NCBI GenBank assembly: GCA_029560805.1 | Contig: JAKQKE010000114.1 | Location: forward strand, 20,667-84,666 | Origin: Spirochaetota bacterium | GTDB taxonomy: Bacteria > Spirochaetota > Spirochaetia > Treponematales > UBA12059 | Length of the DNA: 64,000 nt | Direction: 5' to 3' | Shown: piece after piece, positions 2,429 to 59,600 of the stretch | How the letters are laid out: every line of letters begins with the position of its first letter | How positions within the stretch are numbered: the first letter of the stretch is position 1 | The notes under the pieces: generated by a model | What the model was told of the DNA's origin: nothing | Databases searched by the model: none | Seen by the model: only the letters and a program-made list of their open reading frames with translations | Program-made: the position numbers and the translations under genes

Positions 2429-4249
2429 ATGAAGAAGAAACAGGCTCTGGCGATAGCCGTATTCGCGCTGTTCGCGATCGGCCAGGCATGGTCCCAGCGG
2501 AAGTCCGCCGATTATTACGAGATGTACGCGGGCGAGGTAACGACCCTCAACTACCTGATCTCGGGCTCGGAAAACGAGCATATCATGTTCGCCAACGTCA
2601 TCGACAACCTGATCGAGTACGACCGGTACGGCGTCGTGCAGCCGGGCCTCGCCGAATCGTGGACGACCTCGCCCGACGGACTCGTCTGGACCTTCAAGCT
2701 CAGGAAGAACCTACGCTGGTACACCTGGCAGGGCAAGGAATACGGCGACGTGACGGCCCAGGACTGGGTCGACGCGGCCAAATACATCCTGACCAAGGCG
2801 AACGCCTCGCGCATCGTCGAGCCGCTATCCTCAGTCGTCAAGAACGCCGACGCCTACTACGAGGGCAAGCTATCGGACTTCGCGCAGGTCGGCGTACGGG
2901 CGCTCGACAAGGGCACGCTCGAGTATACCCTCGAGAAGCCGGTACCGTACTTCCTGTCGATGCTCAGCTACGTCACCTACCTACCGGTCAGCGGCAAGTT
3001 CCTGGCAGAGGCTGGCGCCGCCTTCGGCAGGGACCAGACGAGGATCCTATACAACGGCGCCTACATCATGACCGAGTTCGAGCCCCAGGTGACGAGGGTG
3101 CTGACCAAGAACAAGAAGTACTGGGACCAGAAGAACGTCCATATCGGGCGCCTGATCTATCGCTACAATAAGGAATACGCGACTCTGGCCCCCGAGCTGT
3201 TCCTGCGCGGGCAGACCTCGTACGCGGCCATCCCGTCGACCATCCTGGACACCTGGATGAAGGACCCGGCGAAGAAGGCCCAGATACACCCGGCTCGGAC
3301 CAGCTCCTACACCTACTTCTACGGCTTCAACTTCAAGCCGACCTTCGCCGCCGAGTACGAGCCGGACAACTGGAAGGTCGCCGTCAACAACAAGAATTTC
3401 CGCAAGGCGGTCTTTCACGCGTTCGACCGCAAGGCCGCGATGCTAACCGCCGAGCCGTACGCGCCGAGCCGCAGGCTCCAGTCGACCGTGACGCCGCGCG
3501 GCTTCGTGAGCGCCGGCGGGCTCGACTACGTCGCCACCGGATCCCTGCTGGCCATCGCCAACGGCGACTCGTTCGACAAGGCCAAGGCGCTCCAGTACAA
3601 GGCCGCCGCGATGGCTGAGCTGGCCGGCAAGGCCACGTTCCCGGTCAAGGTGATGATGCCGTACAACTCCAGCGGCTCCGAGTGGACGAACCGCGTCCAG
3701 GTCGTCGAGCAGCAGCTCGAGGCCCTGCTCGGTAAGGACTTCATCGACGTGATACCGGTGTCATTCCCGCCGACGGGCTTCCTCAACGCGACTAGGCGCT
3801 CCGGCAACTACGCGATGCAGGAGCTCAACTGGGGCCCGGACTACGCCGATCCGCAGACCTACACCGACCCCTTCGTCTCCGGCGCCAACTACATCTTCAT
3901 CGATAGCTCGCCCGTCTACGCCAAGGGCGACGGCTCGACCGCCTACGACGAACTCGTGCGGGCCGCGATGGCCGAGACTGGCGACCTCAAGAAGCGCTAC
4001 GAGCTATTCGCCAAGGCCGAGGCCTTCCTGATCGAGGAAGCGATGATCATACCGTACGCAATGGGCGGCGGCGGCTTCGAAGCGTCCAAGCTCGAGCCCT
4101 TCACCTGCCCCTACGCGCCGTTCGGCATGTCCAACCTGAAGTTCAAGGGACAGATCGTGCTGGACAAGGCTCTCGACACCGAGGCCTATGAGCGGCTCGA
4201 GGCCCAGTGGAAGAAGGAGCGCGAGGCGGCGCTCAAAAAAGCGCGATAG
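2429..4249 (+). CDS. oppA: Peptide ABC transporter substrate-binding protein (OppA-like, SBP family 5)
   Basis: Signal peptide; translation matches SBP_bac_5 style (GLVWTFKLRKNLRWYTWQGKEYGDVTAQDWVDAAKY); divergent to oppBCD. Confidence 0.9.
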   Translation: MKKKQALAIAVFALFAIGQAWSQRKSADYYEMYAGEVTTLNYLISGSENEHIMFANVIDNLIEYDRYGVVQPGLAESWTTSPDGLVWTFKLRKNLRWYTWQGKEYGDVTAQDWVDAAKYILTKANASRIVEPLSSVVKNADAYYEGKLSDFAQVGVRALDKGTLEYTLEKPVPYFLSMLSYVTYLPVSGKFLAEAGAAFGRDQTRILYNGAYIMTEFEPQVTRVLTKNKKYWDQKNVHIGRLIYRYNKEYATLAPELFLRGQTSYAAIPSTILDTWMKDPAKKAQIHPARTSSYTYFYGFNFKPTFAAEYEPDNWKVAVNNKNFRKAVFHAFDRKAAMLTAEPYAPSRRLQSTVTPRGFVSAGGLDYVATGSLLAIANGDSFDKAKALQYKAAAMAELAGKATFPVKVMMPYNSSGSEWTNRVQVVEQQLEALLGKDFIDVIPVSFPPTGFLNATRRSGNYAMQELNWGPDYADPQTYTDPFVSGANYIFIDSSPVYAKGDGSTAYDELVRAAMAETGDLKKRYELFAKAEAFLIEEAMIIPYAMGGGGFEASKLEPFTCPYAPFGMSNLKFKGQIVLDKALDTEAYERLEAQWKKEREAALKKAR

Positions 4250-4537
4250 CGGACCTTCGGCCGCTATCGCGTAGGGTAAGACCGTATCGCCGACGTAGCG
4301 CGGCGATACGGCAGCCGTTGTTCAAGCGGTCGAGCTAGCGCTCGCCGCTTAACAGCATGGAGCGGACCTTCGGCCGCTATCGCGTAGGGTAAGACCGTAT
4401 CGCCGACGTAGCGCGGCGATACGGCAGCCGTTGTTCAAGCGGTCGAGCTAGCGCTCGCCGCTTAACGGCATGGAGCGGACCTTCGGCCGCTATCGCGTAG
4501 GGTAAGACCGTATCGCCGACGTAGCGCGGCGATACGG
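4248..4537. repeat. 113-bp tandem repeat, 2.6 copies, three hairpins per unit
   Basis: AGCGGACCTTCGG starts at 4248, 4361 and 4474 (exact 113-bp spacing); units 1 and 2 differ at about one base (AACAGCATGG/AACGGCATGG); internal stems AGCGG/CCGCT, CCGTATCGCC/GGCGATACGG, AAGCGGtCGAGC/GCTCGcCGCTT. Confidence 0.97.
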
Positions 4538-22794: not shown

Positions 22795-23004
22795 GATCAT
22801 GGAACATCGCCCATCGATCCCGGAACATCGCCCATCGATCGCCGAATATCACTCTTCGATCGCCGAATATCGCTCATCGATCGCCGAATATCGCTCATCG
22901 ATCCCTGAACATGGCTCATCGATCCCGGAAGATCGCCCATCGATCTCGGAAGATCGCCCATTGATCGCCGAATATCGCTCATCGATCGCCGAATATCGCT
23001 CCCC
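22795..23004. repeat. 21-bp tandem repeat, 10 units, consensus CGATCGCCGAATATCGCTCAT
   Basis: Units begin at 22795, 22816, 22837, 22858, 22879, 22900, 22921, 22942, 22963, 22984. Confidence 0.97.
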
Positions 23005-23096
23005 GGCCAGGCAAGGCCGCTTCCATGTCCGGCTACACGGCTCCCGAGTACAAAAAGCCGTCATTGGCGGCACCAATACACGTTTGGAGGTGGGCG

Positions 23097-23789
23097 ATGG
23101 CCACATCGATTCATGCCAGGTTCCTTCAGGACGCCAGGACTCTCCTGGAACAGGCATCGGGGCTACCGGAGCTGGCCTCGGAGCTGAAGGAGTACGGCTA
23201 CACGCCGGGCAAGTTCCAGGAAGGGTTCAAGCTGCTCGAAGAAGCCGAGGTTCTGTCCAGGCGCAAGGCGGTCGAGTACGGCGAGAAGTACGAGAGCAGC
23301 GCCAAGCTCGTCAAGGCCTGGAAGGGCGCCAACGTCCTGTACCAGAAGGCCCTGAAGGTGGCCCGCGTGGCCCTGCGCGACGCCCCCAAGAGCACCGAGG
23401 CTCTCGGTCTGGGCGGCCCGCGCAACCTGAGCGTCTCCGGGTGGTACGAGCAGGCCGGCGACTTCTACGCGAACCTGTTGGCCAACGACGGCTACGTACG
23501 AGCCCTGGGCGCCTTCGGCTATTCCCGCGAGCGCCTCGTCGAGGAACGGCGGGTTATCGAGGCCGTCATGGATACGAGGGACGAGACGGCTATCGAGGCC
23601 GCCCAAGCCAAGGCGGTTACCGCCGCCCGCGACCGGAAGCTCAAGGAACTGGACGACTGGGTCTCCGACCTCCGCGCGATCTGCGAGGTGGCCTTCTACG
23701 AGAAGCGCGACGAGCTACCGAAGCTCGGCCCCCTCGCGCCGACCGTACGCAGGCATAGCGGCGGCAAGAAGAAGGTCAAGGCGGCGTAG
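23097..23789 (+). CDS. Conserved hypothetical protein
   Basis: TTGGAGGTGGGCG ribosome binding site before ATG at 23097; MATSIHARFLQDARTLLEQASGLPELASELKEYGYTPGKFQEGFKLLEEAEVLSRRKAVEYGEKYE. Confidence 0.8.
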   Translation: MATSIHARFLQDARTLLEQASGLPELASELKEYGYTPGKFQEGFKLLEEAEVLSRRKAVEYGEKYESSAKLVKAWKGANVLYQKALKVARVALRDAPKSTEALGLGGPRNLSVSGWYEQAGDFYANLLANDGYVRALGAFGYSRERLVEERRVIEAVMDTRDETAIEAAQAKAVTAARDRKLKELDDWVSDLRAICEVAFYEKRDELPKLGPLAPTVRRHSGGKKKVKAA

Positions 23790-23790
23790 G

Positions 23791-24155
23791 GACGAGCAGC
23801 GCCCCGATCCGGTTCAACGGATCGGGGCTTCCCTTCGGGGGCGACGAAGGAGACGCCCCGCGCTTACCCGTAACGGGTTTTCGTCCATACCGGGGATGGA
23901 CGCGAGAAACGAGGCCCCCGGGCCACGACGGCGTGCTCTCTGCACGTCGAGGGGCCCGGGTGGTTCCCTTCGGGGGCGACGAAGTAGACGCCCCGGTATG
24001 TCTCACTCTACTCGGGTTTTCGCGCGTAGCGAGGATGTATACGAGAAGCGCCCCGATCCGGGCCTCGACGGCGTGCTCCTTGCACGTCGAGAGGAACGGA
24101 TCGGGGCTTCCCTTCGGGGGCGACGAAGTAGACGCCTCGCTACGCGCGAAAACTA
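23791..24155. repeat. Three-copy nested stem-loop element with compensatory stem changes (possible structured RNA)
   Basis: Copy 1: GCCCCGATCCG 23801-23811 / CGGATCGGGGC 23818-23828. Copy 2: CATACCGGGG 23886-23895 / CCCCGGTATG 23991-24000; CCCGGGCC 23917-23924 / GGCCCGGG 23953-23960. Copy 3: GTTTTCGCGCGTAGCGAGG 24016-24034 / CCTCGCTACGCGCGAAAAC 24135-24153; GCCCCGATCCG 24050-24060 / CGGATCGGGGC 24097-24107. Inner CGAC-GGC-GTGC...GCAC-GTCG in copies 2 and 3; TTCCCTTCGGGGGCGACGAA(G)NAGACGCC in all three. Confidence 0.95.
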
Positions 24156-24857
24156 GGCTTCGGCGATCAGGAGAGTCTTCGAGTCAAGCTTTATGTTCAG
24201 GTCCTCGGGGTTCATGCGCCCGTGGTCCTTAACGACGATGAAGTGGATGTACTCGGCCTTGGGCTCGAGGATGATCAGCACGGTGATGCTGTCGAGGAAG
24301 GGCCTGAGGATCACCGGTACGTTCTTCTTGTCCAGGAGCGGCTCCTCGCCGGACATGGTGCAGGAGTACCAGAACTCGAGCTTCATCTCCTCGGCGAAGG
24401 CGCGGACCTTGGAGAAGTGCTCGGCGTCGGCGCGGGCGAAGTCGAAGCCGTCGGCGATGATGGCGTCGGCGTCGAAGCCGCCGTCGACGATCATCGCGCG
24501 GAGCGACTTGAGGATCTGGTCGGTGGTCACGCCCTCCTGGTTGAAGTTCATGATCACGCGGTTCTTCATCAGGTCGTCGTGGACGCTCGAGTGGTCCTCG
24601 AGGTTGCGCTTCTTGGCGAGCTCGGTGAAGATATTCTCGTACCACGAGATGACGTAGCTCGTGTGGGTGGTGAAGGAGACGTGGATGACTTTCTTGCCCT
24701 GCATGAGCTTGTCGAGGGCCAGCTGGACCAGCACGCTCGTCTTGCCTATGCCCTTGCGGCTCGCGATGACGCCGATATTACCAGCCTTGAGGCCGCCCTC
24801 GATGCCCCGCTCGAGGACGCGAACGGGACTCTTCTTGATCAGCTCCTCTTTCAGCAT
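24153..24857 (-). CDS. RecA/KaiC-like P-loop ATPase domain protein
   Basis: GGLKAGNIGVIASRKGIGKTSVLVQLALDKLMQGKKVIHVSF Walker A; ADAIIADGFDF Walker B-like. Confidence 0.7.
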   Translation of the reverse strand: MLKEELIKKSPVRVLERGIEGGLKAGNIGVIASRKGIGKTSVLVQLALDKLMQGKKVIHVSFTTHTSYVISWYENIFTELAKKRNLEDHSSVHDDLMKNRVIMNFNQEGVTTDQILKSLRAMIVDGGFDADAIIADGFDFARADAEHFSKVRAFAEEMKLEFWYSCTMSGEEPLLDKKNVPVILRPFLDSITVLIILEPKAEYIHFIVVKDHGRMNPEDLNIKLDSKTLLIAEA

Positions 24858-42807: not shown

Positions 42808-44448
42808 CTACCCCAGGAACGGATAGCGCCAGTCGACCGATGGCGCGAAATTCTCCTTTATCGTGCGCGGGCTCGTCCACCGGACCAGGTTCAGGAACGA
42901 GCCGGCCTTGTCGTTCGTTCCGGAGCCACGGGCGCCTCCGAAGGGCTGCCTACCGACGACCGCGCCCGTGGGCTTGTCGTTGATGTAGAAGTTGCCGGCG
43001 GCGTGCCTGAGCGCGCGCGTCGCTTCCATGATGGCGTGCCTATCCGAGGCGAACACCGCGCCGGTCAGCGCGTAGGGCGAGGTCGTATCGACTAGCTCGT
43101 ACGCGGCGGCCATGTCGGAGTCGTCGTAGGCGTACGCGGTCAGCACCGGCCCGAATACCTCGTTGGCCATCGTCTCGGAGCGCGGGTCGTCGCTGACGAT
43201 CAGAGTCGGATCGATGAAGAAGCCCTGGCTCTTGTCGTAGCCGCCGCCCGCGGCTATACGGCAGGCGGGATTGGCCTTGGCGCGGTCGATGAAACCGGCG
43301 ATCGTATCGAAGGCCGCCTCGTCGATCACGGCGTTGACGAAGTTCGCGTGGTCGGTCGGCGGGCCGACGCGTAGCGAGGCGATCTCCGCCGCCAGCCGTT
43401 CGATAAAGCGCCCGGCTATCGAGCGGGGCAGGTAGAGCCGCGAGGCCGCTGAGCACTTCTGGCCCTGGTACTCGAAGGCTCCCCGAACGCAGGCCGTGAC
43501 GGCCGCGTCGAGGTCGGCGTCGGGATGAACGAAGATGAAATCCTTGCCGCCGGTCTCGCCGACCAGGCGCGGGTACGAGGCGTAGATGGATAGGTTGTCG
43601 GCGATGCCTTTCCAGAGGCTGTTGAACACGGCCGTGGAGCCGGTAAAGTGAAGCCCCGCCAGGCCCGGCCTTGACAGCACCCCGGCGCTGATCGCCCTGG
43701 CCGAGCCCGGCAGAAAGTTGATCACGCCGTCGGGCAGCCCGGCCGCCTTGTACAGGCGCAGGAGTTGCCAATTGGACAGCACCGAGCTCGAGGCCGGCTT
43801 CCAGACCACGGTATTGCCCATCAGGGCCGGCGCCGACGGGAGGTTCGCGGCGATGGCCGTGAAGTTGAACGGCGTGACGGCGTAGACGAAGCCGTCCAGC
43901 GGCCGGTAGTCGCTCAGGTTGCGTTCGCCCGGACCGGAGCGCGGCTGCTCGGCGTAGAGCCGCTCGGCCAGGGCCGGGTTGATACGGAAGAAGTCGGCGG
44001 TCTCGCAGGTCGAGTCAATCTCAGCTTGGTAGGCGTTCTTGGACTGGCCAAGCATCGTCGACGCGTTGAGCGCCTTCCACCAGCCGGCGGAGATCAGGTC
44101 GGCAGCCTTGCGGAATACCGCCGCCCGCTCCTGGAACGGCGTCTCGGACCACTCCCGGTAGGCCACGGCGGCGGCCTCGGCCGCCGCGATCGCCTCGGCC
44201 TCGCCGGCCTCGTGGTAGCGGCCGAGTACGAGCGAGCGGTCGTGCGGCGCCCGGATCTCCTTGATCCGCCCCGTGCGGACTTCCTTGCCGCCGATGACGA
44301 GGGGAATCTCGATAGGATTCGCGGCCATGGCCTTGAGCTCGGTGTCGATGGCCGAGCGCTCGAGGGAACCGGGAGCGTACGAACGCACCGGCTCGTTGGG
44401 AGGCAAGCCCGGGGAGGGCTCGCTTCCGTACATAAGAGAATCGTACAT
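42808..44448 (-). CDS. pruA: L-glutamate gamma-semialdehyde dehydrogenase (1-pyrroline-5-carboxylate dehydrogenase)
   Basis: DGFVYAVTPFNFTAIAANLPSAPALMGNTVVWKPASSSVLSNW ... VGETGGKDFIFVHPDADLDAAVTACVRGAFEYQGQKCSAASRLYLP. Confidence 0.93.
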   Translation of the reverse strand: MYDSLMYGSEPSPGLPPNEPVRSYAPGSLERSAIDTELKAMAANPIEIPLVIGGKEVRTGRIKEIRAPHDRSLVLGRYHEAGEAEAIAAAEAAAVAYREWSETPFQERAAVFRKAADLISAGWWKALNASTMLGQSKNAYQAEIDSTCETADFFRINPALAERLYAEQPRSGPGERNLSDYRPLDGFVYAVTPFNFTAIAANLPSAPALMGNTVVWKPASSSVLSNWQLLRLYKAAGLPDGVINFLPGSARAISAGVLSRPGLAGLHFTGSTAVFNSLWKGIADNLSIYASYPRLVGETGGKDFIFVHPDADLDAAVTACVRGAFEYQGQKCSAASRLYLPRSIAGRFIERLAAEIASLRVGPPTDHANFVNAVIDEAAFDTIAGFIDRAKANPACRIAAGGGYDKSQGFFIDPTLIVSDDPRSETMANEVFGPVLTAYAYDDSDMAAAYELVDTTSPYALTGAVFASDRHAIMEATRALRHAAGNFYINDKPTGAVVGRQPFGGARGSGTNDKAGSFLNLVRWTSPRTIKENFAPSVDWRYPFLG

Positions 44449-44784
44449 GCCATACTCCTTTCCAAATAGCGGGAGGTCGATCCCTTTCGGACTCGGCCCG
44501 TCGGCTCCGGGCCGTGGCGCGGGCGGCTTGCCCGGCTGTAGGCTATCGGAGCTCGAAGCATGGTTCTGTAAAAGACCTTCAGCGCTCGCCGTGGCGATAA
44601 TCGCCATCGGGCTGCCATGTCTGGCCGCGGCGCCCCCGCCGACGGCGGGGCGGTTCGATGCGGTACGTCGGCCATACCGACGAGCCAGCTTCGTATACCG
44701 ACTGATATATCAATATACTGCTTATTGATCAGAGCGCCTAGCGGAGCCGTACGAACCGGCAAGCGCCGCAACTCCCGGCGAGCG

Positions 44785-58594: not shown

Positions 58595-58671
58595 ACAGAC
58601 TCCGATTCTACTCCTCCGCCGCCTAAAAGTCAAACACGCCCATACGCGCTCCCATACGCGCTCCTATACGC

Positions 58672-58814
58672 GCGCCAGGGATGGCGCGCCACAACCCGGC
58701 CCGTCCGCAGGACGGGAACGTCACGGATGACGATGCCGCGCACGGATGCGCGGCCACAACCCGGCCCGTCCGCAGGACGGGAACGTCATGGATGACGAAA
58801 CGTCATGGATGACG
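58672..58814. repeat. Dimeric stem-loop repeat element, locus 2
   Basis: GCGCGCC-agggat-GGCGCGC then CCCGTCCGCAGGACGGG 58700-58716 and CGTCACGGATGACG; CCGCGC-acggat-GCGCGG then CCCGTCCGCAGGACGGG 58765-58781 and two CGTCATGGATGACG. Confidence 0.95.
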
Positions 58815-59600
58815 AAATAGCTCCCACATGAGGATCGCGCCGGCCGCGCCGACGTTGAGCGAATCGACACCCCCCGCCATCGGCACGATGACGCGTTCGT
58901 CACAGGCCGCCGTTACCTCCGAGGGCAACCCCCAGCCCTCGTTTCCGAGGATCAGCGTCACGGGGCGACCGGCGGCCGCCGCCCTCGCCCCATCCGGCGT
59001 CAGCGCCCCGGGTACCAGGGCCGCCGCGACGAGCAGGTTCCCGCCCACGGCCCCTCCAACAGCTCCGCGAGCGGACGGCCCCCTGGCCAGCTCGAGCTCC
59101 GAGGCGTCGGCTAGCGGCAGTACCGGCAGCCCGAGCGCGCAGGCCATCGAGGCCCGGAGCGCCTTACGGCTATACGGGTCGGCGCAGCCGGGTCCGAGGT
59201 AGACGCGGGCCGCTCCGAGCGCCGCCGCGCTCCGTATCAACGCTCCCAGGTTGTCGGGGTCTGTCACGTTCCAGAGCGCGAGGGCCGGCCCGCCAGGCGC
59301 GGCGGCAGGCTCGGGCGACGTCGGCCTGTCGGCTAGCGCGAGCAAGCCGCGGTGAAACTGGAAGCCGAGCAAGTCAGCCATGTCGGCACGGCTCAGCGCG
59401 GCCACAGGGAAGCGACCGCCCGACACGCCGAGCCACTCCTCCTCGTCGGCCGGCACGCAGAGCATCGAGCGCAGCCGTACGCCGCAGTCGAGGGCCTTCT
59501 GGACGACGATACGTCCTTCGCAGACCATCAGCCCGGCGCGGGCGTAGTCCCGGTCGCGCAGGCCGGCGAAGGCCGAGGACGGGTCGGTAGGATCGATCAT
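58803..59600 (-). CDS. TrmH/SpoU family RNA methyltransferase
   Basis: ALWNVTDPDNLGALIRSAAALGAARVYLGPGCADPYSRKALRASMACALGLPV ... LILGNEGWGLPSEVTAACDERVIVPMAGGVDSLNVGAAGAILMWELFRHP. Confidence 0.93.
   Translation of the reverse strand: MIDPTDPSSAFAGLRDRDYARAGLMVCEGRIVVQKALDCGVRLRSMLCVPADEEEWLGVSGGRFPVAALSRADMADLLGFQFHRGLLALADRPTSPEPAAAPGGPALALWNVTDPDNLGALIRSAAALGAARVYLGPGCADPYSRKALRASMACALGLPVLPLADASELELARGPSARGAVGGAVGGNLLVAAALVPGALTPDGARAAAAGRPVTLILGNEGWGLPSEVTAACDERVIVPMAGGVDSLNVGAAGAILMWELFRHP

Follow-up and report, generated by a model that had tools for sequence, protein, structure and literature searches.

REP sequences and REPINs are palindromes of 20-40 bp with an unpaired terminal tag, GTAG or CGTC (PMC3733652, PMC3116915), and IS200/IS605 elements work in folded single-stranded form, on the lagging-strand template (PMC6006769). 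The repeat that we describe here was found in a 64,000-nucleotide stretch of DNA from a Spirochaetota bacterium, which we call the window. Like REP and REPIN sequences, it forms dispersed intergenic palindromes in tens to hundreds of copies, with tandem clusters and a spread over several phyla, and the genomes richest in it are without a RAYT-type Y1 transposase, as CGTC REPs are themselves without an associated transposase. It differs from them in its three nested helices, in its conserved internal loop and in its unit length of about 105-150 nt, which lies outside the REP size range. Bacterial MITEs are likewise short, non-coding, present in many copies and bounded by terminal inverted repeats; in our element these are CTTTTGAAAATA..TATTTTCAAAAG in treponemes, and at least seven of eight extra outward pairs form in 59 of the 69 copies of one treponeme genome (G264) and in 28 of 44 copies from the window's own family (f1). 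Unlike those of MITEs, however, the terminal repeats vary by genome and by site while staying complementary, and we found no target duplication, nor a parent transposon among the loci examined.

Integron attC sites share with the element a folded single strand in which structure is conserved and sequence little so, but they carry RYYYAAC ... GTTRRRY boxes, which pair as R, along with L boxes, whereas the arms of the element run in the inverse order, GTTTTC...GAAAAC. The element has neither R/L boxes nor a cassette arrangement, and it occurs without intI. TD-2 RNA (RF03162) is, like the element, a repeated structured element of oral treponemes and often adjoins element copies, but it has a different sequence and structure, and RF03162 matches neither the element copies nor, at gathering, any part of the window. 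Finally, the "multicopy nucleotide sequences" of Geobacter are catalogues of palindromic intergenic repeats (PMC2700814, PMC2996986). A Geobacter copy of the element exists, and these catalogues may include the family; going by their descriptions, the Geobacter class with a stated similarity to other genomes is CCYTC-based, which the element is not. A literature search, with supplementary repeat catalogues outside its scope, turned up no published name, and its single match to the core sequence was unrelated. The sequence-only reading that preceded this work did not recognize the element as a known riboswitch, T-box, terminator or REP type, and Rfam 15 (4227 families) agrees: no copy examined has a match above gathering, the best below-threshold match over the array has E = 1.2, and nothing credible appears even at E <= 10. 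A repeat with a conserved fold, found in several phyla and in 50-70 copies per oral treponeme genome but lacking both an Rfam entry and, as far as we found, a literature name, would be a sizeable annotation gap.

Three tandem units between convergent genes

The same reading had placed three tandem copies of one architecture between two convergent genes, and this description holds, with a direct-repeat spacing of 135-144 nt. Helices are numbered from the outside in.

23791-24155: array of three tandem units, in the gap between the convergent ORFs 23025-23789 (+) and 24153-24857 (-)
23791..23873, +: copy 1, a left-truncated unit delimited from the sequence, starting directly after the stop codon of ORF 23025-23789; P2 23801-23810 / 23819-23828, closed by a short loop where P3 would stand; the conserved 3' half GCGACGAAGgAGACGCC follows
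23867..23881, +: linker hairpin CCCG-TAA-CGGG-TTTT upstream of copy 2, terminator-like in appearance
23887..23999, +: copy 2, 94.1 bits with covariance model R1, whose training set includes this copy; P1 23886-23895 / 23991-24000, P2 23917-23924 / 23953-23960, P3 23929-23936 / 23942-23949
23964..23976, +: insertion TTCCCTTCGGGGG, formerly the 5' half of a helix "P4"; shared by copies 1 and 3 and missing from almost every other copy
24016..24153, +: copy 3, 100.7 bits with the same model R1, the sole window copy with a full P1; P1 24016-24034 / 24135-24153, P2 24050-24060 / 24097-24107, P3 24069-24076 / 24082-24089
24153..24155, -: TAG, the stop codon that ends the convergent ATPase-like ORF (24153-24857); P1 ends on the first + strand base of this codon

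P1 of copy 3 is a perfect 19-bp inverted repeat (24016-24034 with 24135-24153), and the P2 stem of copy 1, GCCCCGATCC/GGATCGGGGC, is identical to that of copy 3 when read directly from the sequence. Linkers resembling the hairpin at 23867..23881 also precede other tandem copies, and the junction CGAAAACTAG at the ATPase-like stop codon recurs in four other species. Position between convergent genes, a T-run and an A-run at the two ends and the terminator-like linker are what one might expect of an ordinary bidirectional transcription terminator that has been tandemly duplicated. We consider this very unlikely to be the explanation, as the T-run comes before the stem and the A-run after it, an order that suits an intrinsic terminator on neither strand, and the core sequence is conserved across phyla.

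Neither ORF flanking the array has a Pfam match. The downstream product is called ATPase-like on the strength of a Walker-type motif recognized by eye, and the upstream ORF encodes 254 aa. In four sister species a ZIP-type transporter gene (named by eye) occupies the position of the latter, which suggests that the 254-aa ORF is a lineage-specific replacement adjoining the array; in a fifth species (G007) the position is taken by other genes. Just upstream of this ORF, at 22802-23001, lies a 21-bp tandem repeat, GAATATCGCTCATCGATCGCC, in 9.5 copies.

Fold and covariation

Copy 3 has a folding energy of -99.8 kcal/mol, against -59.2 +/- 4.1 in shuffles (z = -9.9); copy 2 folded alone gives a weaker result (z = -2.2). 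From the outside in, the unit consists of P1, an internal loop with a short helix, a two-part P2 and P3. P1 spans 9 bp in the model and frequently extends by some 10 more; a T-run lies on its 5' side and an A-run on its 3' side. The internal loop is conserved as GATGnnnnCnAGg.. / ..aACGmmGCnGAnGCC, and P3 is a conserved hairpin of 7-8 bp containing a G.U (in DNA, G.T) pair. Two details of the earlier picture had to be redrawn. It had described an unpaired GGC bulge on the 5' side of P3, which reflects one of two registers. In the other, given by RNAfold, CGGCGTGC and GCACGTCG form eight uninterrupted pairs, one of them G.U, and we prefer this unbroken 8-bp stem with its conserved G.U/G.T pair. 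Over 44 copies this wobble position is G.U in 32, G-C in 11 and C-G in one. It had also proposed P4 (CTTCG/CGAAG) as a conserved helix. Of its two sides, CGAAG lies in the conserved internal loop and CTTCG in a 12-13 nt insertion, TTCCCTTCGGGG, that only 3 of the 44 aligned copies carry. An extra short helix lies within the junction (column pairs 16-128, 18-126 and 19-125 of alignment A4), and two of its pairs covary.

That P1 and P2 differ between copies yet stay complementary had been claimed from the window's own copies, and it is borne out across 44 copies from 14-15 genomes. Among these, 90.9% of cells pair, double changes occur in 25 of 30 pairs, 306 cells are doubly changed where shuffles give 95 +/- 7, and the covariation score reaches 0.60, compared with 0.17 +/- 0.01 for shuffles and at most 0.11 with slid partners; because the alignment was fitted to the model, these figures are tilted in favor of the structure. 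Within one genome, the 69 copies give 317 doubly changed cells, against 96 +/- 7, and a score of 0.44 against 0.15. Covariation in the stems beyond chance is very strong, by statistics computed without phylogeny.

Distribution in the order and in other phyla

A covariance-model search for further copies, a check set beforehand, found them in the family and in the order. Model R1, built from 11 copies, has 45 matches in 15 of the 23 genomes of the family, and R2, built from 44 copies, has matches in 32 of the 297 genomes of the order; with these two models the repeat family is searchable at once. Another contig of the window's own genome carries one more copy, and a sister species has three copies at the orthologous site and one elsewhere. 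Five of the six species examined carry the element right after the ATPase stop codon and the sixth does not; the arms at this site vary by species (GTTTTCGCGCGTAGCGAGG, GTTTTCGTCCATACCGGGG, GTTTTCGCGTATAGCGAGG and others). Among single-contig genomes, dispersed copies number at least 69 in G264, 55 in G144, 52 in G198, 14 in G024 and 12 in G027. A near-identical copy in Treponema vincentii OMZ 806 leads us to infer that G264, G144, G198 and their like are oral treponemes. Copies occupy both orthologous and non-orthologous sites, and their outer arms diverge with complementarity kept. Rather than a local element in three copies, the window's array is one instance of a dispersed repeat family that many genomes and phyla share.

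Within the window's family most copies lie at gene 3' ends, where the right end touches a terminator on the opposite strand, a stop codon (frequently CTAG), or a 5S rRNA or SRP RNA gene, these two recognized by eye from sequence; one Nitrospirae copy adjoins tmRNA. Tandem units occur in several species, with internal copies ending P1' early and the full arm found only in the copy beside CTAG. The copies of G264 have mixed contexts. In g12/g20 genomes a cluster of copies alternates with silent RHS C-terminal cassettes, together with which it has been duplicated; four loci of genus g12 (L093, L094, L096 and L097) are long arrays of such cassettes in which an element copy precedes each one. TD-2 RNA (RF03162) copies also lie beside element copies and, by eye, apparently inside them (L193 15411-15808; flanks of L114, L116 and L138).

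A cluster of treponeme hits had suggested that the element might be, or be related to, an integron attC site, a single-stranded recombination hairpin; the cluster turned out to be a row of silent RHS C-terminal cassettes. The principle of a variable sequence with a conserved folded strand is the same, and in oral treponemes single copies have intI nearby. We nevertheless regard this as extremely improbable. True Treponema attC sites in the same genomes (L191/L193) differ in sequence and have AAC/GTT boxes (PMC3607928), the element is not at cassette boundaries, the single intI-proximal copies lie upstream, on the opposite side from the cassettes, and G144 and G175 carry the element without an intI match.

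Orientation relative to the replichores is skewed in G264 (18+/8- versus 9+/22-, Fisher p = 0.0035, RHS cluster left out) and in G198 (p = 0.047, with position 0 taken as the origin), and is weakly so, without significance, in G144 (p = 0.18, origin from GC skew). In all three it agrees with a special strand that is the lagging-strand template, for which it offers weak support: the bias is post hoc and modest (60-70%), and could follow gene orientation.

We also scanned genome contigs with the pattern AGGCGTRCTN{1,4}GYACGTYGAG, which describes P3 only. At least 120 stretches match, in Rokubacteria, Nitrospirae, Planctomycetota, Clostridia, Deltaproteobacteria, Binatota and others, a list that may be inflated by MAG contamination. 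By our own rough estimate some tens of chance matches are expected over the whole collection, so independent evidence is needed. R2 run on 80 loci matches 67 places at E <= 0.01, partly driven by P3, and matches below about 35 bits may be chance. Features on which the loci had not been selected decide for the same architecture in other phyla: internal-loop motifs stand on both sides of P3 in 35 of 83 matches (mean 1.0 and maximum 6 in shuffles), and P1 pairing continues outward beyond the model in 28 of 59 (mean 1.1 when flanks are exchanged between loci). A blastn search of plasmids and phages with a Rokubacteria copy gave no match, and of 2.9 million viral contigs only 5 contain the P3 pattern, among which two have convincing full copies. 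The stretch between two inverted copies at one locus (L250) holds, by eye, metabolic ORFs and no evident transposase.

Routes of spread and maintenance

The reading we favor, while granting it an even chance of being wrong, is that of a non-autonomous mobile repeat recognized as a folded single strand, in the manner of REP sequences or MITEs, with the window's array produced by duplication of a unit of about 140 bp. The element would spread as a folded single DNA strand recognized by its structure, namely the P3 hairpin and the internal loop, and the mobilizing enzyme would be supplied in trans; REP/REPIN elements and IS200/IS605 ends would be the analogues. Copies 1-3 may then have arisen by duplication of linker, P1, core and the first 6-10 nt or so of P1', and because units duplicated in this way end early in P1', only the last copy would keep a complete P1. 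The conserved G.U/G.T pair of P3, present on one strand only, points to one strand being special.

Comparison of eight flank pairs gave neither a clean empty site, the orthologous sites being occupied by other hairpin repeats, nor a target-site duplication. At L322 and L330, the sister-species sites of G264 copies, stands a different nested-hairpin repeat with the core GACCATTTGAGCCGCATAGCGGCGAAATTCTGGTTGAACAGCC, as if hairpin repeats had been swapped. Y1 transposase (PF01797) has no match in ten element-bearing oral treponeme (g12/g20) genomes and is present in several element-free ones. We considered three enzymes as helpers and set them aside: Y1 transposase is absent where copies are most numerous, and both integron integrase and reverse transcriptase are patchy, their presence not tracking the element. 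With known enzymes missing and no empty site, mobility is deduced from dispersal and from differences between sites. Copies at junctions shared by orthology in several species (at the ATPase gene and at the KHEE* gene) could be maintained for function, which counts against the mobile reading. If the element does move in folded single-stranded form and needs no Y1 transposase, this would point to a new structure-specific recombination enzyme. The wider proposal, of one class of structure-recognized mobile (or RNA-encoded) three-helix nested-hairpin elements over many phyla, with an enzyme acting on the folded strand, we put forward tentatively and think likelier to fail than to stand.

It is also possible that the element is a structured RNA made from the + strand, such as a 3'-end, attenuator-like or sRNA element, selected at gene 3' ends and convergent terminators. 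The very strong covariation, the strand-specific G.U in P3, the conserved internal loop with its tandem G.A-like mismatches, and the position of copies next to 5S rRNA, SRP RNA, many gene ends and, in one Nitrospirae case, tmRNA all speak for such an RNA, and if the element is transcribed, an unannotated RNA would adjoin the genes of these three RNAs. RNA stems should prefer G.U over A.C. In P1 and P2 the ratio of G.U to A.C cells, which are not independent events, is 27:35 in the window's family and 50:37 in G264, against 12:1 in a control of 18 tRNAs from the same loci. Such near parity leans towards a DNA hairpin or a process that corrects the arms. The cross-phylum set, however, has about 87 G.U against 25 A.C outside P3, which is more RNA-like, so this test is not uniform across sets. 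The sequence-only reading had inferred selection on a folded RNA or on hairpin-forming DNA; covariation and the conserved unpaired stretches sustain the general claim, and the 27 G.U against 35 A.C of the window's family count against its RNA side. Furthermore, the + strand is antisense to the neighboring gene at most sites in that family, orientation relative to genes is mixed in G264, and 50-70 dispersed copies, some inside ORFs or RHS cassettes, are unlike one regulon. We hold the RNA explanation, the strongest of the rivals, to be a doubtful one that still deserves attention.

Near parity of G.U and A.C within the order would also be expected if the paired arms were kept by a mutational process, such as template switching or quasi-palindrome correction, acting without selection on a decaying repeat. 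The perfect 19-bp arms fit such a process, as do the left arms at several sites, which reproduce the T-run of the terminator on the right. Against it, the internal loop between P1 and P2 is unpaired and conserved over all families, and arm correction alone would erase this loop or let it drift. We judge this explanation unlikely.

Elsewhere in the window, at 4248-4537, a 113-bp unit is repeated 2.6 times at 99% identity, with long internal palindromes, and is another candidate structured repeat. Palindromic tandem repeats at 58639-58817 (CGCGCCACGGATGGCGCG...) look by eye like the first hairpin of TD-2 RNA and have no Rfam match at gathering. A Moco (molybdenum cofactor) riboswitch lies at 44440-44570 on the - strand (48.9 bits).
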